From a virus, in the IMG/VR virus record IMGVR_UViG_3300005253_000634, positions 1 to 26,078 of that record: a DNA stretch of 26,078 nucleotides, one strand, 5' to 3'. Positions 272 to 25,513 of the stretch are shown piece after piece. A program made the translations under genes and the position numbers. Numbering within the stretch: the first letter of the stretch is position 1; the number at the start of each line of letters is the position of its first letter. A model generated the notes under the pieces. The model worked only from the letters and a program-made list of their open reading frames with translations, made no database searches and was not told where the DNA came from.

Positions 272-976
272 TCATGGCACCCTAAAATACAATCCACTAA
301 ACAGAATGGTAATCCTACCATAAGCTTCTTCTCCTAATACCTCTCTAAGCTCTGGTAACAATGAAAACTCATCAGGCTCATTATCAGTGATCTTAGAATA
401 ACCTTCGTACATCGTCCTGATATGAATTAGTGTACTATGGTAAAGTACAGTAGCAATATTCCTTTTGAGACTGTACATTCTCATCATATTGGCTATAGCT
501 CCTCTAGCTTTACCATATACCCCATCTATTATACAATCAAACACATATATCGTAGCATCATCTAAGATGTCTACAGGTATAGTTGGAAATCTCTCTCTAT
601 TTCTGATTATAAGATTTTTTATGATGTCATCCTCATAATCAAAGTCAAGCTTTACAGGCTCAAATACCTGTTCTAGAACAGCAGCCAGTCTGTATTCTCT
701 ATTCTCTTTGCTTATGTAGGTATTGCAACAGTTTGAAAATACTGAGGACAGGTAAAAGTGTAATATAGCTATATCAGGATTGAAATTACCTAGTGCGGCA
801 GGAATCTTTATAAGACATTCCTGTACCATATCATCCTTGTACTCCCTTGGATATTTCGATGCAATAACTTCTGCTAGGTTTATAGACTCCTCAATAATCT
901 CCTCTAAGATATCATTATCTTTAGAGAATAACCATTCCCCCGCCAACTCCGTTACGTAATCGCAATCGAATATCAT
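272..976 (-). CDS. Sigma-factor-like protein (possible late transcription factor)
   Basis: This is a 234-residue acidic protein. Residues about 40-100 look like sigma-70 region 2: a helix with DDMVQE, a segment with NFNP, then a helix running into YISKENRE. This resembles the layout of phage sigma factors such as those of SPO1 or T4 gp55. The C-terminal half is helical, but I see no clear region 4 helix-turn-helix. If the assignment holds, it would direct host RNA polymerase to a phage promoter class. It is the last gene of the block before structural genes resume, which fits a late-gene regulator. Its ATGA start overlaps the resolvase stop, implying translational coupling. A second protein of similar type lies at 14064-14708. 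The call is tentative because the motif match is weak and judged by eye. Confidence 0.4.
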   Translation of the reverse strand: MIFDCDYVTELAGEWLFSKDNDILEEIIEESINLAEVIASKYPREYKDDMVQECLIKIPAALGNFNPDIAILHFYLSSVFSNCCNTYISKENREYRLAAVLEQVFEPVKLDFDYEDDIIKNLIIRNRERFPTIPVDILDDATIYVFDCIIDGVYGKARGAIANMMRMYSLKRNIATVLYHSTLIHIRTMYEGYSKITDNEPDEFSLLPELREVLGEEAYGRITILFSGLYFRVP

Positions 977-1512
977 TCAGGAGATTCAATCTGTTCCCAT
1001 CCATACAACGCAATACAAATAGCATCAGCAATACCATCATGCAACTTTTTACCTTTAGGTTTCAAAGTAGGAAGTTTATATTCCAGGTCAAGACAATACT
1101 GAATTGATACGTCCTTGTCAGTCTCTCCCTCTTCTCTAGGTGGTAACATACCCTTCCACTCGACTGGACGAACCTCCTCTATTTGGATACTTAACAAGTC
1201 TAGTATAGCAGTGATCCTACCATAATTCTCAGCTATACCAAATTGTCCCTTCTGCCCACCTCTAACCTGTTGTATCTCTATAAACGCTTTATATTCAAAT
1301 GTAAAATGCTTTGATAACCAACTATGATGCTTTGATAACCAACTATGATGCTTTGATAACCAACTATGATAATACTCTAATATTAGCTCTTGTAACTTGC
1401 CAACATCAACCTTGCCATTCACCTGTGGTAATGGATATGCCAGACAGTTCTTACCCTCATCCATGAAGGCAATACCACCTTGCTTACCCGGATCGATCCC
1501 TGTGACAATCAT
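973..1512 (-). CDS. RuvC-like Holliday junction resolvase with an internal heptapeptide triplication
   Basis: This is a 179-residue protein of the RNase H-fold RuvC superfamily. Visible acidic metal ligands are D7 in GIDPGK, E79 in FIEIQQ, and D159/D163 in LHDGIADA, so the catalytic set appears complete. In phages such enzymes cleave branched recombination or replication DNA before packaging. Between the first and second catalytic motifs, residues 49-69 are three perfect copies of HSWLSKH, encoded by a 21-bp tandem repeat, where other family members have a short linker. The repeat keeps the frame. No clear ribosome site precedes ATG 1512, which sits 2 nt after the stop of the upstream gene, so coupling is likely. 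Context with RecA, flap nuclease and Mre11-like genes supports a recombination role. Confidence 0.8.
   Translation of the reverse strand: MIVTGIDPGKQGGIAFMDEGKNCLAYPLPQVNGKVDVGKLQELILEYYHSWLSKHHSWLSKHHSWLSKHFTFEYKAFIEIQQVRGGQKGQFGIAENYGRITAILDLLSIQIEEVRPVEWKGMLPPREEGETDKDVSIQYCLDLEYKLPTLKPKGKKLHDGIADAICIALYGWEQIESPE
1306..1368 (-). repeat. Three perfect 21-bp tandem copies inside the resolvase gene
   Basis: The plus-strand unit starts atgctttgataacc and ends aactatg. It occurs at 1306-1326, 1327-1347 and 1348-1368 without a single mismatch. Each unit encodes the heptapeptide HSWLSKH on the minus strand. Perfect identity at synonymous positions indicates a recent slippage or duplication event, or a locus that still changes copy number. 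Confidence 0.97.
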
Positions 1513-5676: not shown

Positions 5677-5961
5677 CTATTTCCCCCAAGAATGGCTTTT
5701 AGTACCAATATTATTAACGTGGCTTATGTGTTTGCTATATAGTTGCCACAAAATATTGATACAAATACCCCCTATTTGAACGATTTCTAATTCCAGTGGG
5801 TCATCATGTTTTCCGCGTGAGGCTAATATAGCCTCTGCTATTTCTTCAAGCAACGTAGACATAGCGGGTCTCATTTCTCTGTGCTTGTGTGCGTCCTCTA
5901 ATACAGCGGTTACAGCATTATCGTAAAAACGCTTTTCCTGATATGTCATTTCTTTTGTCAT
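5677..5961 (-). CDS. MazG-like small protein (possible nucleotide pyrophosphohydrolase)
   Basis: This is a 94-residue helical protein. The central stretch LLEEIAEAILASRGKHDDPL followed by ELEIVQIGGICINIL has the layout of short MazG-like all-alpha NTP pyrophosphohydrolases: E-E-x-x-E on one helix, then a helix with E-L-x-Q. Those enzymes hydrolyse nucleoside triphosphates to monophosphates, and phages use them in nucleotide supply or in stress-alarmone control. The second acidic motif is incomplete (ExxxxV instead of ExxD), so activity is uncertain. Its ATG 5961 has only weak ribosome-site sequence (AAAGAG), and that site lies in one arm of a long inverted repeat described separately. Translation may therefore be structurally controlled. 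Confidence 0.5.
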   Translation of the reverse strand: MTKEMTYQEKRFYDNAVTAVLEDAHKHREMRPAMSTLLEEIAEAILASRGKHDDPLELEIVQIGGICINILWQLYSKHISHVNNIGTKSHSWGK

Positions 5962-5962
5962 T

Positions 5963-6142
5963 TTTAAGTAGCTCTTTACCAGAGGTAGGATTTAAGGTAT
6001 ATTTCCCAGATCCCAATCCATAAAACCGTTTCTAGAATGGTTAAATTTTATTGCCCTGAGTTCAATCCTAGGATCGCCTCTCTGAAGTTATTGCCCCAGA
6101 GTTTAGCTTGCTCAAGATACCTCTGGTAAAGAATCACTTAAA
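5963..6142 (-). repeat. Long inverted repeat with a 130-nt insert, abutting a start codon; possible structured RNA
   Basis: The arms at 5963-5987 and 6118-6142 match in inverted orientation at 22 of 25 positions, including 15 consecutive perfect pairs (TCTTTACCAGAGGTA at 5973-5987 against 6118-6132). On the minus-strand transcript the 3' arm ends one base before AUG 5961 and contains its only ribosome-site-like sequence. The enclosed 130 nt hold a further hairpin (CTCTG/CAGAG), a 10-bp palindrome (ATCCTAGGAT) and a near-duplicate AACTCTGGGGCAATAA / AACTCAGGGCAATAA (6088-6103 and 6048-6062). No open frame fills it. It could be a cis-regulatory or processed RNA, or a small mobile-element remnant. 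Confidence 0.7.
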
Positions 6143-6182
6143 TAAGATTAGGCTAGGAGCCTATTTCTAAACCCCTAGCCTA
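6143..6182 (-). terminator. Probable terminator or processing hairpin after ssb
   Basis: Perfect 9-bp arms TAGGCTAGG (6174-6182 on the minus strand) and CCTAGCCTA (6149-6157) enclose a 16-nt loop. ATCTTATTT follows on the transcript. The hairpin starts 13 nt after the SSB stop codon. The U-tract is interrupted, so termination is probably partial. Confidence 0.55.
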
Positions 6183-6194
6183 CTATTGGATATC

Positions 6195-6998
6195 TTACCG
6201 CCGTCTACGTCGTCTACGTCTGACTTCTTTCTTGACAGGATGATCGTCCTCTTCATCTTCATCATCATCCTCATCATCACTTACAATATCCTCTACATCC
6301 ATATCCAAATCGAACTCTTCAACTAGTCGATCATATGGCAATACATACACAGCATGACCCTCTGATAACTCTGAATCCTCTTCTGGATCATCACTGACTT
6401 CTACCCAGGACAGATCTTTAGCCTTTTCCAATATACCATCTGCATCTTCTAACTCACTTGGAAATCTTCTAGGGATGACCTGATATTCTGTATTAAAGCC
6501 TGTACCCTCTCGTTCAACAGTAATGTCTGTACCCTCTATTAAATCATATATATCTCCATAGTCAGGATCATTGATAAAAGCAGCTATGGAAGAGAACACA
6601 GTCACACCAGGAGTATAGATAAATGGACCTTGAACACTGTCACCATCCCTGACAACAATATTCATCCAAAACATCTTTCTTACCCTCAGTGTACTTCCTA
6701 ATTTACGAGAAGCTTTGTCACCTGCTGAATACAGTTCCTGGACTATCTCACATATCGGACAATCTAATTCACTATCAGAAGTAAAGGATGGACAATATGC
6801 ATATTTACCCTCAGATATATTGTGACGTCCTACTTCTTGGAAAAAGTAGTCCATATCACCTATCTCTGGTAATATACGGATTGTATTCGAGCCTTGTTTT
6901 GGACTCCAAAACCCGCTACTGCCTCCTAAATCTGTATTAGCTAGTTTCTCTCTGATCCTTTCTAGCTTTGCCTTACGGCTTGCCTTTTTCTTTGCCAT
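6195..6998 (-). CDS. T4 gp32-like single-stranded DNA-binding protein
   Basis: This is a 267-residue protein. After a basic N-terminus (MAKKKASRKAKLERIREKLA) comes the gp32-type core: GFWSPKQGSNTIRILP, then a zinc module H59, C69, C80, C83 (CP...DCPICE), whose spacing is close to the gp32 ligands. The C-terminal region 200-257 is strongly acidic, as expected for the partner-recruiting tail of SSBs. Unusually, the protein then ends in EVRRRRRRRR, so the acidic tail is not terminal. It coats single-stranded DNA at forks and in recombination, and should work with the polymerase, helicases and recombinase encoded around it. ATG 6998 has AGGAG 8 nt upstream. The untranslated leader is long and repetitive and is discussed separately. 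Confidence 0.85.
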   Translation of the reverse strand: MAKKKASRKAKLERIREKLANTDLGGSSGFWSPKQGSNTIRILPEIGDMDYFFQEVGRHNISEGKYAYCPSFTSDSELDCPICEIVQELYSAGDKASRKLGSTLRVRKMFWMNIVVRDGDSVQGPFIYTPGVTVFSSIAAFINDPDYGDIYDLIEGTDITVEREGTGFNTEYQVIPRRFPSELEDADGILEKAKDLSWVEVSDDPEEDSELSEGHAVYVLPYDRLVEEFDLDMDVEDIVSDDEDDDEDEEDDHPVKKEVRRRRRRRR

Positions 6999-7004
6999 CT
7001 TTAC

Positions 7005-7104
7005 ATCTCCTAGTAATATAGTAATACGGTAATATAGTAATAAGAACTAGAGTGATCCGCTTCGGTGGCTGGAATTCACCTTTGACTATGACTCTCTTTC
7101 AGCC
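7005..7104 (-). promoter_or_regulatory. ssb leader with AU-rich direct repeats and a possible pseudoknot
   Basis: The ribosome site AGGAG lies at 7007-7011. Immediately upstream are two perfect 14-bp direct repeats (plus-strand gtaatatagtaata) at 7013-7026 and 7029-7042, predicted to be unstructured and A/U-rich in the mRNA. Further upstream, four 5-nt segments can pair in the crossed order of a pseudoknot. GGCUG (7104-7100) pairs with CAGCC (7071-7067), and AGAGU (7095-7091) pairs with ACUCU (7053-7049). This arrangement recalls the T4 gene 32 autogenous operator, a pseudoknot followed by an A/U-rich tract up to the ribosome site. The stems are short, so chance pairing is possible. Confidence 0.45.
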
Positions 7105-7252
7105 GTATATAGGGTAGTTGCCAGTGTGCGAGTGCCGCATAAATCTCGTACTATCCCTACTATTAGTCCACTTTTACCCCGATATTGTTTATTTACTAGA
7201 GCGAATCCTCTTAGACAAGTTAATCTGTAAGGAGCTTGTCTGTTATACTAAA
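7105..7252 (-). other. Intergenic leader region upstream of ssb with one hairpin and a weak promoter candidate
   Basis: There is no credible gene here. A 7-bp inverted repeat (AGACAAG, 7235-7241 and 7213-7219 on the transcript) follows the end of the preceding gene but lacks a U-tract, so it is not a standard terminator. A weak promoter could be TTGTCT (7213-7218), a 17-nt spacer and TAAATA (7190-7195). The match is poor and its -35 overlaps the hairpin arm. Confidence 0.25.
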
Positions 7253-7792
7253 CTAGCCCTTCCTCCTCTTCCTAATCGTTCTCTTAGTATCCTCTACTGC
7301 TTTCTTAAATTCCTGATCTTTTATATGCAATCCTGTCATTTCAAACTCAGCACGTCTATGCGCTCCTAAGGAAATCAACATACTAGCTCTCTGATCCATA
7401 GCACTTACTATTGATTTCAATATATTATAATATCTCTGTACTTCGACCTCATTTTCTCTAGCTTCTTTGTATGCCTTGTCTAACATAACCTCAGACCTGA
7501 TAATAGCTTCTGTGTACTTGATGTCATCATGTTGGTAATCTGCACGATAGTCCAAGTCACAACTAGCATATACCCTGTCCTTGTTAACCTTGGCTCTAGC
7601 TAATTGGTAATCTGCTTCTGCTAGTTCCTTGGCAAAGAAGGCATACCATGCAGCCTGATTCCTAAACTCTGTATCTAAATCATATTCATCTATACGAAAT
7701 AGCTCAGAGATACGAAACTTCCTACCACTAATTATAACTGCCCCTAGATTATCTCCTAAATTTTGGTTTGACTTTACGTTTTCTTTTATCAT
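7253..7792 (-). CDS. Coiled-coil protein, possible UvsY-type recombination mediator
   Basis: This is a 179-residue, highly charged, helical protein. After a short N-terminal domain it carries NQAAWYAFFAKELAEADYQL and a long heptad-like stretch with many Glu/Lys/Arg residues, ending in a basic tail (KRTIRKRRKG). Phage proteins with this W-Y-A-F-x-A-x-L-x-A-E signature followed by a coiled coil occur next to SSB genes and have been proposed as UvsY-like recombinase loaders. Here it is the gene immediately upstream of ssb and shares strand with the recombinase, which supports the idea without proving it. ATG 7792 overlaps the upstream gene by 44 nt. An AGGAGA at the end of that gene has no start codon at usable distance, so the longer form is kept. 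Confidence 0.5.
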   Translation of the reverse strand: MIKENVKSNQNLGDNLGAVIISGRKFRISELFRIDEYDLDTEFRNQAAWYAFFAKELAEADYQLARAKVNKDRVYASCDLDYRADYQHDDIKYTEAIIRSEVMLDKAYKEARENEVEVQRYYNILKSIVSAMDQRASMLISLGAHRRAEFEMTGLHIKDQEFKKAVEDTKRTIRKRRKG

Positions 7793-8198: not shown

Positions 8199-8440
8199 TA
8201 CTCTCTCCGGTTTAAAACTATTTCCACCCACTTCTGAATCTCCTCATCCTCCTGCTTACTAGCACCTACCCAAGGAATCTCGTTATTATAAAATGGCCTT
8301 ACTACATCAAGTAGCCTTCTAGCCATACCACAAGCCTCAGCTACTCTGACTATCGTTATTAACATGGCTAAATCGGGTCTTTTCAAGACTTCTAACTCTT
8401 TTTCGACCTCTAGCAACAAACTCTCTATCTTCTCATCCAT
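8198..8440 (-). CDS. Small hypothetical helical protein downstream of the polymerase gene
   Basis: This is an 80-residue protein with an acidic amphipathic N-terminal helix (MDEKIESLLLEVEKELEVL) and no known motif. It starts inside the last codons of the polymerase gene (8 nt overlap), and its stop overlaps the next start, so it belongs to the polymerase operon and is probably translated by coupling. Confidence 0.55.
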   Translation of the reverse strand: MDEKIESLLLEVEKELEVLKRPDLAMLITIVRVAEACGMARRLLDVVRPFYNNEIPWVGASKQEDEEIQKWVEIVLNRRE

Positions 8441-11132
8441 TATCTTCTATCCATATCTCATAAGGAATCTCTGTACCGTAATGTGTTCCTACCTCTATAT
8501 CAGCCTTTAGTGGACATGTTAACCAAGAGAAGTCTACACTAGGCATATACTCACCAGCATACTCAATTATCCCTTCCATTACGTCTACACAGATATTGGC
8601 AATATCATCTATCTCCTCTGGTGGTACATCTAATACTATACTATCATGGACTGTATTGACTATTCTAGTCTTATAATCGAATTGATAAATCAGGTCATCT
8701 ATAACTATAAGAGCACACAGGAGTATATCACTAGCTGCTGACTGCACTGGCATATTAACAGCCGACCGGATAGCTTTCCTTCTCTCTCCTACATTTCTAT
8801 CTGATAAATCTTGGATATATGGTAGTGCTTCCCTTCTGCCAAATGGAGATTCTATATAACCAAAGGTAGTAGCAAAGTCTACACACTCATCTTTATACCT
8901 TAACACCTCTGGAAATCTGTCATAGTACATATCTACTGCTTCTTTAGCCTCATCTAATGGAATACCATACATCTTGTGCAATGTGTATTCATCGCCACCA
9001 TAGAGTAATGTCCAATTAGTCCACTTGTATATATACCTGACTGGTTTCTTGTTAACCTTGAACCATGCTACATACTCATCATCTATATTGTCTAACATCA
9101 AACCTTCACTAACCATGAGTGCTACTACTGAATGGAAATCTATTCCTCTCCTGTGAATGTCTAGCATAGCTATACAGTCTGATAGACTAGCAAACACCCT
9201 TAGTTCCATCCCTGAATAGTCTGAGGACATCAGGACACCGTTTGGATAAGAGGTAGTAAATAGATTCTTTACTGGTAATATCTCTAATAACGTCCCTGGC
9301 TCCTTCTCTGGAGTAGGAATATTCTGTAAATTGGGATTTACACTGGCTAACCTACCTGTCACTGTACCATGTAAATTGTAGTTAGACCTGACTCTCTTAT
9401 CACTGCTGTACCACTCACCTGTAGCAGCAGGACGTATGTAGGTACTCAACATCTTACCTAGCAGCTTAAAATATCTGACATCATCTATGATTGGATAATC
9501 ACCTATCAGTTGAGTCATTACACTAGCTTTAGTTGTTGGTAATCCTGTATCAGTCTTTTCCAGGACAGGCATATTGTATACACCGTAAAACAATGTTCTC
9601 AAGTGAACAGGTGAATTAGGATTGAACTCTATAATTTTGCGTTTCCTCTTGCCATTTCTACCTTCAGCAGTAGTATAATTTATAACATCTGGATTAATGG
9701 ATATATTCTTCACACTAACATCAAACTTATCTGTAATGTCAAATATGATATCATCATCTGCTTTAGCCTGTAAAATCCTAACAGTCCTGTCTACCATAGG
9801 CTCATTGGATATCACATCATACAACTCCTCTTGTCGTTCTGAGTAGATGATATTGTATCTCCATGCTATATAGTCATCAATGGATATCCCATTGTATTCT
9901 ACCCTGGATAGAGCATTACTAACAGGTATCAAAACATCATGGTAAAAGCCAACCTGCTTGTCTGACAACTCTTTGTACATATGTTGGTGTAACCTGTAAG
10001 TTGCATCTGCATCCATAGCTGCATATGGTAATAATATGTCTAGTGGTACATTTCCGTAATTCCCTTCTCTAGCCGGGTTGGCTTCTGGATTAGCCTTAAT
10101 ATAGTCATTTAATCCTTTATCATAATCATACATCTCTAGATGCAGCCCTGCTAATCTTTTCAGTGAATGGATACCTCTCCTACTGTCTAGCATATGACTG
10201 AGCAGCATTGTATCGCCACCAGCTTCAAACTCAAAGTCATCTTCTACTGATCCTCCTAACTCAGATCGCGTATGCTGCTGATCGAACTTGATATTATGAC
10301 CTATAATATTACTGGTATGAGAGTGTAGTATACTTCTCAGTAAAAAGTAAACTGTCTCTAGTTGCTTATATGTCCAATGGTCTGAATGTCTCACTGGCAG
10401 TGAAAATGTCCGGTCACCACCACTAAATGACACAGCTACTATTTTAGAATCAAATGGATCTAGTGATGTGGTCTCTGTATCATACGCTATGACCTCTTGT
10501 GTTTGTAAGAAGTCATGCATCTCCTTAACCTCTTTAATAGTCAATGGATGTTCATAGTTATTACCTTCCTCTTCATCCTCATCCACTAGTGCTTCTACTG
10601 CTTTGTCCATACCTTCTAGCCATGTTCCCATAGCTAAATTGTTCCTCAAGATATATGCAGGATGGAAAAGAGGTACATATATAGCATCATCCCTCTTAAC
10701 TACCACTCCATTCCAGGTAGTTATACCCTGCTCTCCTAGTAATGCCTTGAGAGGACTATTACCAAACAGGAGTACTAAGTCAGGTTGATAGTGTTCTATC
10801 TCTTCTTCTACATAGTGTTTGCAATAGTTTATGGCTCTGGCTGTTATTTTATTATTAGGTGGTCTACATCTCACTATATTGGTAAACCTGACCATATCTG
10901 TGATATCATCTAACCCTAATTTACCTATATCTATAACATCACTCAGAGCATCTCTAAGCAATCTACCTGATCTACCTACAAATGGTAATCCCTGCTCATC
11001 TTCTGCCTCACCAGGAGCCTCACCTACAACCAATATGACAGGATCATCTGAACCAGACGACTGCATCCATGGATTATAGCAACCTTGGAAAAGGTTACAC
11101 TTATCGCAATTAGAGTTCTTCTCTATCTTCAT
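8433..11132 (-). CDS. Uracil-DNA glycosylase / DNA polymerase I fusion protein
   Basis: This is an 899-residue replicative polymerase in three parts. Residues 1-185 form a family 4 uracil-DNA glycosylase: Fe-S-type Cys C9, C12, C89, C104, motif GEAPGEAED (37-45) and HPAY (157-160). Residues 210-400 form a proofreading DnaQ-like exonuclease with AYDTET (D218, E220), GHNIKFD and the Y-x3-D motif in YAAMDAD. The remainder is family A polymerase without a 5' nuclease domain: motif A SSDYSGMEL (D638, E643), helix O with R699, K703, W707, Y711, and motif C VHD (829-830). Glycosylase-polymerase fusions are known from some large Bacillus phages such as SPO1. The residue aligned with E. coli Phe762 is tryptophan, which is unusual. 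The start overlaps the upstream gene by 23 nt. Functions, order and completeness look secure. Confidence 0.93.
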   Translation of the reverse strand: MKIEKNSNCDKCNLFQGCYNPWMQSSGSDDPVILVVGEAPGEAEDEQGLPFVGRSGRLLRDALSDVIDIGKLGLDDITDMVRFTNIVRCRPPNNKITARAINYCKHYVEEEIEHYQPDLVLLFGNSPLKALLGEQGITTWNGVVVKRDDAIYVPLFHPAYILRNNLAMGTWLEGMDKAVEALVDEDEEEGNNYEHPLTIKEVKEMHDFLQTQEVIAYDTETTSLDPFDSKIVAVSFSGGDRTFSLPVRHSDHWTYKQLETVYFLLRSILHSHTSNIIGHNIKFDQQHTRSELGGSVEDDFEFEAGGDTMLLSHMLDSRRGIHSLKRLAGLHLEMYDYDKGLNDYIKANPEANPAREGNYGNVPLDILLPYAAMDADATYRLHQHMYKELSDKQVGFYHDVLIPVSNALSRVEYNGISIDDYIAWRYNIIYSERQEELYDVISNEPMVDRTVRILQAKADDDIIFDITDKFDVSVKNISINPDVINYTTAEGRNGKRKRKIIEFNPNSPVHLRTLFYGVYNMPVLEKTDTGLPTTKASVMTQLIGDYPIIDDVRYFKLLGKMLSTYIRPAATGEWYSSDKRVRSNYNLHGTVTGRLASVNPNLQNIPTPEKEPGTLLEILPVKNLFTTSYPNGVLMSSDYSGMELRVFASLSDCIAMLDIHRRGIDFHSVVALMVSEGLMLDNIDDEYVAWFKVNKKPVRYIYKWTNWTLLYGGDEYTLHKMYGIPLDEAKEAVDMYYDRFPEVLRYKDECVDFATTFGYIESPFGRREALPYIQDLSDRNVGERRKAIRSAVNMPVQSAASDILLCALIVIDDLIYQFDYKTRIVNTVHDSIVLDVPPEEIDDIANICVDVMEGIIEYAGEYMPSVDFSWLTCPLKADIEVGTHYGTEIPYEIWIEDNG

Positions 11133-12562: not shown

Positions 12563-12614
12563 AATAATATCCTCTTACTTATAGAACGATATACTTATAA
12601 ACAAGCCGTTAGCC

Positions 12615-12639
12615 GTACAAAAACGTAGTTTTTCAGTAC
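12615..12639 (-). promoter_or_regulatory. Operator-like dyad upstream of the 3D-like gene
   Basis: AAAAAC and GTTTTT (12619-12624 and 12628-12633) form an inverted repeat around GTA. GTAC tetramers lie at 12615-12618 and 12636-12639. It lies 53-77 nt before ATG 12562, between the terminator and the gene. A promoter must exist here if the terminator is efficient, but I see only weak candidates, such as TATAAG behind TTGTAC with a short 15-nt spacer. Confidence 0.35.
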
Positions 12640-12725
12640 AAATCCCTATAAGGGTATAGCAAATGACCCATAAGATGGAAACCCGCTTAAACCAACAAAA
12701 ACATAGTAAATTTGCATGTAATCTA

Positions 12726-12772
12726 TAAAAATGAAGTGAGGGATACTACCATTTGTCCGTGTAGTATCCCTC
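12726..12772 (-). terminator. Strong hairpin terminator after the charged-protein gene
   Basis: A perfect 12-bp stem (GAGGGATACTAC, 12761-12772 on the transcript, pairing with GTAGTATCCCTC, 12738-12749) has an 11-nt loop. It is followed after ACTTC by a run of five U residues (12726-12731 region). It separates the operon that starts at the 13500 promoter from the polymerase operon. Confidence 0.75.
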
Positions 12773-12783
12773 TTGTATATATC

Positions 12784-12816
12784 TGCCCTTGTAAGGCATT
12801 AGCTCTTAGGAGCTAA
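12784..12816 (-). other. Two small hairpins in the 3' untranslated region
   Basis: Between the stop codon at 12823 and the terminator, the transcript can form TTAGCTC-CTAA-GAGCTAA (12799-12816) and TGCC...GGCA (12784-12798). They may protect the transcript end or form a compound terminator. Confidence 0.4.
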
Positions 12817-12822
12817 AAATCG

Positions 12823-24177: not shown

Positions 24178-25498
24178 CTATACGCTCCTCAGTATGCTTC
24201 AGAAGGTATTCATTAGTATCGTCTAAGAAGTCATGTATCTCTATTATATTCCTTCCCTCTTTCTTCCTGAGACCTCTACCTATTCGTTGCAGCAACTTAA
24301 TATCACTTTTACCGCCACCTGCTAAAACCATAATATTTACGTCAGGAACATCCACACCCTCATCAAAGATGGTAGACGCTATATAAACCCCTGATCGCCC
24401 AGATTTCATGCGTTTTAGTACGTTCTGGCGTATGTTTGTAGTTATACCACCATGTACAAATACTGATCCTGGTATCATCCTCTTCAATGTATCTCCATGC
24501 TCAATTCTCGTAACCAGGATCAAAACTATACCATCTCTATCTTCTGCCACTGCCTTTATAATCCTATTCCTAGGATGATTATTTACTATCAATCTATCAT
24601 AGGCTACATGGTAATCCATATCCCAATTTGCTTTTTCAGGGGAATACACTTCATGTACAATGACTTCTGGAACAGCAGAATAGCCCTGCTCTATAAGTTC
24701 TGCATTACCCAGATCGTATATAACCCTGCCAGTAATGGAAATGAGCTTCATATCTGCTAGGACATCATTCTTTAATGGAGTGCCACTAAACCCATATCTA
24801 TATTTACCTGATATCTGGTATAAAACGTCCATCATCTGATCTGAGGATGTATGATGACATTCATCTACCATGACCACTTCCTGACTTTGGAAATAATCCT
24901 GATAAGAGTAATGTCCTTTCATATTGTGTAATGTTTGTATCATGGCCACTGTAATTATACTAGGTTGATGTATACCATCTCCTATCTTACCTATTGATCT
25001 ACCTAGTCTAGTTTCCAATCTCTCTGCTGTCTGATGTAACAATTCCTTACGATGAATTATAATGATAGCACGTTTATCTAACACTTTGAGCATAGCCGCC
25101 ATAACCTCAGTCTTACCAGAATTTGTAGCCATCTTAGCTATACCTCTACGTGCTCCTAATAGTTTATTGGCTGCATCGACTTGGTAATCTCTGAGAGTTA
25201 TACCTATTAACATATCAGGTGTAACTGTATAGACTGCATCAGTATGATGGTCCCCCCAATCTATGTCTACCTTATACCCTCTCTTATTCAGTGCTGGAAC
25301 AACATAGCCCAACAAACCTGTTGGAAATGACCTATGAGATGACATAAGTGATATGTAACCATCCCACAGACCTTTCTTAAACTTAGGCATAAACTGAAAT
25401 CCTGCTGGTCTGGCACGACAAACAGTACGAATGATACCGAGCACTCGCACGTCCTTTGTGTAAACCTTGGATTCAATATCACCTACAACTATCCTCAT
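24107..25498 (-). CDS. UvsW-like SF2 helicase
   Basis: This is a 463-residue superfamily 2 helicase. An N-terminal domain with FKKGLWDGYI (about 40-50) is characteristic of UvsW-like proteins. The core has LRDYQVDAA (Q-motif-like), Walker A ATNSGKT (124-130), DECHHT (212-217), FSGTP, FDEGVDVPDVNIMVLAGGGKS and QRIGRGLRKKEG (motif VI). UvsW branch-migrates recombination intermediates and unwinds R-loops, helping switch T4 from origin- to recombination-dependent replication. Here it is the first replication gene downstream of the structural gene. The upstream gap is 15 nt with no promoter, and the ribosome site is poor, so expression may be coupled or read through. Confidence 0.9.
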   Translation of the reverse strand: MRIVVGDIESKVYTKDVRVLGIIRTVCRARPAGFQFMPKFKKGLWDGYISLMSSHRSFPTGLLGYVVPALNKRGYKVDIDWGDHHTDAVYTVTPDMLIGITLRDYQVDAANKLLGARRGIAKMATNSGKTEVMAAMLKVLDKRAIIIIHRKELLHQTAERLETRLGRSIGKIGDGIHQPSIITVAMIQTLHNMKGHYSYQDYFQSQEVVMVDECHHTSSDQMMDVLYQISGKYRYGFSGTPLKNDVLADMKLISITGRVIYDLGNAELIEQGYSAVPEVIVHEVYSPEKANWDMDYHVAYDRLIVNNHPRNRIIKAVAEDRDGIVLILVTRIEHGDTLKRMIPGSVFVHGGITTNIRQNVLKRMKSGRSGVYIASTIFDEGVDVPDVNIMVLAGGGKSDIKLLQRIGRGLRKKEGRNIIEIHDFLDDTNEYLLKHTEERIDVYTREGFKVKIDKAETSISDTV

Positions 25499-25513
25499 AT
25501 AATACTAAACTTG

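Follow-up and report, generated by a model that had tools for sequence, protein, structure and literature searches.

Analysis of the ssb leader in the window, the whole 26,078-nt stretch of viral DNA (IMG/VR record IMGVR_UViG_3300005253_000634, positions 1 to 26,078), revealed four tandem octamers that run into the ribosome site of the gene. The leader is a candidate gp32-type autogenous translational operator built of iterated putative SSB-binding units without the T4 pseudoknot, a reading in which we place about even confidence. This reading is built on what was observed: a product homologous to gp32, the array itself and where it lies, and an excess of repeats in the ssb leaders of relatives. 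The main features of the locus were as follows:

6195 to 6998, minus strand: ssb, 267 aa, gp32-type single-stranded DNA-binding protein with an acidic C-terminal tail and conserved H59-C69-C80-C83
7007 to 7011, minus strand: Shine-Dalgarno AGGAG, 8 nt 5' of the ATG at 6998, identified from sequence
7011 to 7042, minus strand: four tandem octamers TATTACYR, proposed SSB operator tract (TRF period 8, 4.0 copies), containing both 14-nt repeats
7241 to 7255, minus strand: promoter-like element TAGTTTAGTATAACA, at the stop codon of the upstream gene

The ssb gene and its octamer array

The larger genes of the 26-kb window were all on the minus strand, and ssb stood in a replication region, between an upstream gene for a UDG-PolA polymerase and downstream genes for an SbcD-like nuclease and RecA. 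A single protein encoded at 8433-11132 (minus strand) fused a uracil-DNA-glycosylase domain, a 3'-5' exonuclease and a family A DNA polymerase. The ssb gene was directly preceded by a 254-nt non-coding leader, and no DNA-level relative of the gene and its leader was found in the phage collection.

The gene had been read as encoding a gp32-like SSB, and this was borne out by Pfam (gp32, PF08804; E 8.3e-18), by PHROG (single-strand DNA-binding protein; E 3.9e-31), by a profile built from 17 ssb relatives that matched the T4 and RB69 gp32 chains (2.9e-12), and by Foldseek. With the AlphaFold model of the protein (pLDDT 77.7), the gp32 cores 1gpc, 2a1k, 8gme and 2atq were the only Foldseek matches with E < 0.001, and the best six matches were all gp32 cores. 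The window SSB is a true gp32 homologue, with the gp32 core sequence and an OB-type fold. Its putative His-Cys-Cys-Cys zinc site (H59, C69, C80, C83) was invariant in 17 relatives, and the CPVC portion of the site aligned with gp32 in the profile comparison. The acidic C-terminal domain was present as the tail DDEDDDEDEEDD, common to the relatives.

From 7042 to 7011 the octamers were ordered TATTACTA TATTACCG TATTACTA TATTACTA, followed by GGAG, with 30 of 32 positions identical among the copies. The last base of the array is the A of AGGAG, the array abutting and overlapping the Shine-Dalgarno by that base. The sequence-only reading had reported two perfect 14-bp repeats, and TATTACTATATTAC was indeed exact at 7013-7026 and 7029-7042 (minus strand); the period-8 tandem array of four octamers describes these repeats better. 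None of 1000 dinucleotide shuffles attained the lag-8 self-match of the tract (23 vs 12.8 in shuffles), and a direct-repeat test on the window leader gave p 0.003, the floor at 300 shuffles. About half of the array was unpaired in the predicted leader ensemble. A start-stop ATGTAA (7006-7001, minus strand) lay right behind the Shine-Dalgarno, 8 nt 5' of the true start codon.

Architecture and repeats of related ssb leaders

Viral contigs were searched for ssb leaders by protein-based scans and a DNA pattern scan. Apart from the window (WIN), its ssb clade was represented by 31 leaders, 32 in all, and most of the clade proteins were 45-63% identical to the query used. Further samples were about 32 non-redundant leaders from distant gp32-type phages, largely marine ones, and 30 T4-like leaders, likewise non-redundant. 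The clade leaders were unalignable, so base-level conservation cannot be shown, and it is architecture that recurs. This architecture consisted of a conserved promoter-like element at or just past the end of the upstream gene (22 of 32 leaders), then a variable stretch that was a hairpin, a tRNA-like element, a longer domain or, in several leaders of 34-64 nt, nothing, and finally a tract of short direct repeats reaching up to the Shine-Dalgarno. The claim of a repeated A/U-rich tract entering the ribosome site was supported both by the position of the window array and by the leaders of relatives. A folded upstream domain common to the clade was rejected, as free energies ranged from z -7.1 to +1.3 and several leaders had no domain. 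Anti-Shine-Dalgarno motifs (CCTCC/CTCCTT) were observed 11 times in leader domains vs 4.4 expected, a count dominated by related loci.

The clade consensus of the promoter-like element was GCAAGTTTAGTATANTAG, with a -10-like TATNNT and no visible -35. Its 9-mer AGTTTAGTA was found 16 times vs 1.2 expected in the searched loci, mostly on the ssb strand and at gene ends. The element is probably a promoter with TATNNT as its -10. A second copy of the GCAAGTTTAGTATANTAG element in the window (25498-25512, minus strand) ended at the start codon of a UvsW-like helicase gene; if this copy is a promoter, the helicase transcript would be leaderless. The product of 272-976 (minus strand) gave a sub-threshold sigma-70 region 2 match (E 0.022) and might be a phage sigma factor able to recognise the element.

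Repeats were assessed with a period-free direct-repeat test at positions -62 to -12, with 100 genes of the same loci as controls. The test was positive in the 18 first-found ssb leaders (Fisher p 3e-6), in the 14 added later as a check (p 0.013; p 0.009 vs controls) and in the pooled 18 + 14 leaders vs the 100 control genes (p 3e-5); the controls gave no signal (2% below 0.05). It was devised after the lag result of the later 14 had been seen, and its result on these is supportive, not strictly blind. T4-like coliphage leaders (p 5e-7) and estuarine T4-like leaders (p 0.003) were also positive.

The spacing of the repeats was analysed by pooled self-comparison, run first on 16 and then on 18 leaders, against shuffles that preserve composition, not relatedness; L021 and L026 are closely related (82% identical proteins). 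In the 18 leaders lag 8 peaked at 0.39 vs 0.28 shuffled (z 6.4), followed by lag 16 (z 3.3) and no other lag, and the lag-8 signal was confined to about -50 to -15. The top four lag-8 z values among all genes tested belonged to ssb leaders, with the window ranking third. Over all 32 clade leaders lag 8 had z 5.6, and when WIN, L021, L026 and L028 were left out lags 7 and 8 still stood out (z 3.2 and 3.1). In the 14 later leaders lag 8 was absent (z 0.9) and lag 7 had z 3.8, which ruled out a universal period of 8 across the clade; spacing 8 was dominant in the nearer relatives of the window. Leaders of the distant marine gp32-type phages peaked at lag 7 (z 7.1) and those of T4-like coliphages at lag 10 (z 5.1), T4 itself has a repeat period of 5 in its sequence, and the estuarine T4-like leaders showed no clear period. 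This variation of repeat unit and period by group (8 and 7; 10 in T4-like coliphages; 5 in T4) counts against the operator reading.

Composition and pairing were compared in 18 first leaders, a set that differs by a few loci from the 18 of the lag analysis. G made up 11.5% of positions -52 to -14 vs 23.6% in 39 same-locus control leaders (p 1e-6), and the predicted unpaired probability of the tract was 0.51 vs 0.39 in controls (p 9e-5). G-depletion was absent from the 14 later leaders (22% G), and universal G-depletion of ssb tracts was therefore ruled out; the lack of both G-depletion and lag 8 in these 14 also weighs against the operator reading.

The main and serious rival to the operator reading is a strong ribosome-landing site, in which the tract would be an unstructured A/U-rich standby and S1-binding region for an abundant early protein, with no autoregulation and with repeats arising by slippage and tolerated. 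An unstructured A/U-rich tract is also expected of a strongly translated gene, which counts against the operator reading; sites of strong initiation typically have unpaired tracts with little G, SSB is generally required in quantity, and the tract was predicted to be more unpaired than controls in the first 18 leaders. However, translation has no need of phased repeats, yet these were enriched over control genes, the later leaders included, and stood at a preferred spacing of 7-8 nt, and slippage alone leaves unexplained why it is ssb leaders that have them. We regard this explanation as possible, leaning towards doubtful.

Two further explanations were considered very improbable, to a similar degree. 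The tract may be the rut site of a Rho-dependent attenuator in the leader, being an unstructured stretch with C in excess of G (22% vs 11% in the first 18 leaders). The window array, however, contains a single C in every octamer but one, which has two, G-rich units (AGGC, GGCC) occurred in L015, L020, L028, L227 and L248, and the tract sits at the Shine-Dalgarno and not 5' of a stretch available for termination. The AT-rich octamers, which are direct repeats adjoining a replication gene, might also act in DNA as iterons or the unwinding element of a replication origin, or as sites for a protein binding duplex DNA. Against this, the strands were asymmetric, with little G on the mRNA strand (first 18 leaders only), and the position relative to the Shine-Dalgarno was fixed, both of which point to RNA; nor was there a turn in GC skew at the array.

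A tRNA-like element of 72-140 nt was observed in the ssb leaders of eight relatives:

L224 2387-2460, L222 2366-2443, L220 2328-2402, L225 2372-2447 and L023 3833-3924, ssb leaders: compact forms
L018, L027 and L022, ssb leaders: longer forms

The element had a 7-bp acceptor (GCCAGYY/RRCTGGC) followed by A-C-C/T and a normal T-arm, with the D and anticodon arms replaced by one arm, whose loop was AUUCAGCCUCC in the compact forms. ARAGORN called none of these elements, and the Rfam tRNA score of 25.4 was below threshold. A covariance model from three elements recognised L023 (7e-8), L225 (2e-7) and L018 (0.003) and, weakly, L022 (0.15) and L027 (0.39), all ssb leaders. In an alignment fitted to the model, 92% of pairs were paired and 11 cells changed on both sides vs 3.4 in shuffles. 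A pattern scan of the collection returned four of the elements and four chance matches unrecognised by the model, and the element was found only before ssb. The covariance model found none in the window, where GTGAATTCCAGCCAC (7080-7066) briefly resembles the element loop GAATTCAGCCTCC, insufficiently for a model match; no tRNA or tmRNA was found in the window either. Other RNAs observed in the related contigs were an Rfam DUF3800-VI cis-regulatory RNA just 5' of the tRNA-like element in the ssb leader of L220 (2269-2321, plus strand; score 37.6 vs gathering score 35), a tRNA-Glu gene of 89 nt within the 550-nt ssb leader of L004 (2574-2662), and a tmRNA gene with the tag AKQPVKLAA in the phage contig L010 (4551-4905).

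Predicted folding of the leader and the proposed pseudoknot

The sequence-only reading had proposed a T4 gene 32-like operator, in which an H-type pseudoknot at 7104-7049 nucleates SSB that then spreads over the repeats. The letters are complementary as claimed (GGCTG 7104-7100 with CAGCC 7071-7067; AGAGT 7095-7091 with ACTCT 7053-7049). When these 100 nt were dinucleotide-shuffled, 17% of the shuffles still offered a pair of crossing 5-bp stems with similar loops, and over all 100-nt stretches of the window the frequency was 12.5%, so the complementarity is at chance level. In the leader ensemble the proposed stem 1 had P of about 0.46 (nested) and the proposed stem 2 had P of about 0.0001, because the 3' arm of the latter sits in a predicted long-range closing stem:

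7200 to 7211, minus strand: 5' arm of the predicted closing stem, pairing with 7049-7061 (P 0.88-0.98)
7049 to 7061, minus strand: 3' arm of the predicted closing stem, including 7053-7049, earlier assigned to pseudoknot stem 2

This predicted stem is of 12 bp and bulged, and no relative shares its sequence. The leader was no more stably folded than its shuffles, with z -0.14, +1.02 and -1.02 in three runs and z -1.9 for the 192-nt leader domain alone; in sliding-window folding (519 windows, minus strand) the leader was unremarkable (z -0.4 to +1.3). An Rfam scan of 5700-7400 gave one chance snoRNA match only.

Covariation in related leaders and energy folding had been named among the checks on the proposal, and both went against the pseudoknot. 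No ssb leader of a relative contained a counterpart or retained the crossed stems, several related leaders of only 34-64 nt had no room for a pseudoknot domain, and at least six lacked any upstream domain; folding never favoured the crossed stems (stem 2 P 1e-4). The pseudoknot half of the proposal thus falls by its own tests, and the 7104-7049 pseudoknot was rejected both as a structure and as the nucleation site for SSB, given its frequency in shuffles, the competing stem (P 0.98) and the lack of conservation. What stood of the earlier proposal was the gp32-like SSB and the repeat tract. The T4-type operator as first proposed, which has in its favour the complementary letters and the example of T4, T2 and RB69 (PMC535899, PMC3014915), is in our view the least probable of the explanations weighed.

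Two other intergenic stretches of the window were observed to fold strongly. Between ssb and the next gene (5962-6194, minus strand) a 15-bp terminator-like hairpin was followed by a multibranched element of about 180 nt with a predicted closing stem of >20 bp (TTTACCAGAGGTA...TACCTCTGGTAAA; folding z -6.0). It had no Rfam match and no DNA match in the phage collection, and the stretch is a candidate structured RNA or inverted-repeat element. The stretch 12563-12822 (minus strand; z -3.6) had a 14-bp hairpin and no similarity to the element 3' of ssb. An in-frame 21-nt tandem repeat of 3.1 perfect copies (HHSWLSK) was also seen at 1306-1370 (minus strand), in the 973-1512 ORF.

The candidate operator and known autogenous systems

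The comparison with relatives suggests that the array is a docking strip by which SSB shuts off its own synthesis. The transcript would begin just 3' of the TAGTTTAGTATAACA element, and the final 32 nt of its leader before the Shine-Dalgarno would be the four tandem UAUUACYR octamers. With SSB in excess over single-stranded DNA, protomers would dock side by side on the octamers and the docked SSB would extend over AGGAG, excluding the ribosome; accumulating single-stranded DNA would titrate SSB off the leader and allow ssb to be translated. The octamers would take the role of the T4 UUAAA/UAAA repeats, with nucleation that needs no pseudoknot. We infer the transcription start, the binding of SSB, the repression and the correspondence of the 7-8 nt spacing to the footprint of one protomer.

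In T4 the gene 32 operator consists of a pseudoknot and an unstructured tract with UUAAA/UAAA repeats, both required for repression (PMC535899), and cooperative spreading carries gp32 on into the ribosome site (PMC535899; PMC3014915). The window shares with the operators of T4, T2 and RB69 a gp32-family SSB gene, a repeated A/U-rich and mostly unpaired tract before and into the ribosome site, and probably a promoter of its own just upstream. It differs in having no supported pseudoknot, in its UAUUACYR unit of period 8 in place of UUAAA/UAAA, in a leader that is longer (about 240 nt counted from the promoter-like element) and of unrelated sequence, and in that autorepression is putative. UUAAA units were absent from the window tract, and the test that covered the proposed 7104-7049 pseudoknot did not give the 5' pseudoknot of about 28 nt that characterises the T4 type; because neither was found, the window leader is outside the T4 operator type as defined.

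The RB49 gene 32 leader was reported to retain UUAA units with no recognisable pseudoknot (PMC535899), and a later review describes it as without a pseudoknot and without A+U-rich sequence (PMC3014915). Repeats reported in the absence of a recognisable pseudoknot are common to RB49 and the window, the units being UUAA in the former and UAUUACYR in the latter, and regulation is putative in both. M13-type gp5, the translational repressor of gene 2, is likewise a phage SSB that represses a specific mRNA (PMC535899), as is proposed for the window; its SSB is unrelated, and its target is the mRNA of another gene, whereas the target in the window would be the SSB's own.

The occluded site of gp32 on ssDNA is 7 nt (PMC10484735), and repeat units 7-8 nt apart would therefore fit one protomer each. 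On a broader and more speculative reading, which we consider unlikely, gp32-family SSBs in distant phage groups would use their own mRNA as a measured docking strip, in which the distance between units equals the length that one protomer covers (8 nt among the nearer relatives of the window, 7 nt among marine gp32-type phages) and the units are divergent in sequence and conserved in register, so that cooperative filament growth on RNA becomes gene-specific without a pseudoknot. As a general law, equality of period and SSB footprint is weakened by T4-like coliphages (10) and fails for T4 (5).

Even in T4, the means by which an SSB indifferent to sequence picks out its own mRNA have been called unclear (PMC535899), and a 2010 review calls for gp32 autocontrol to be studied across diverse phages (PMC3014915). 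Should many phages manage with phased repeats and no pseudoknot, this specificity would become testable with simple RNAs that vary in unit sequence, number and spacing, and a repeat spacing tied to the SSB footprint, if true, would be a new kind of operator logic.
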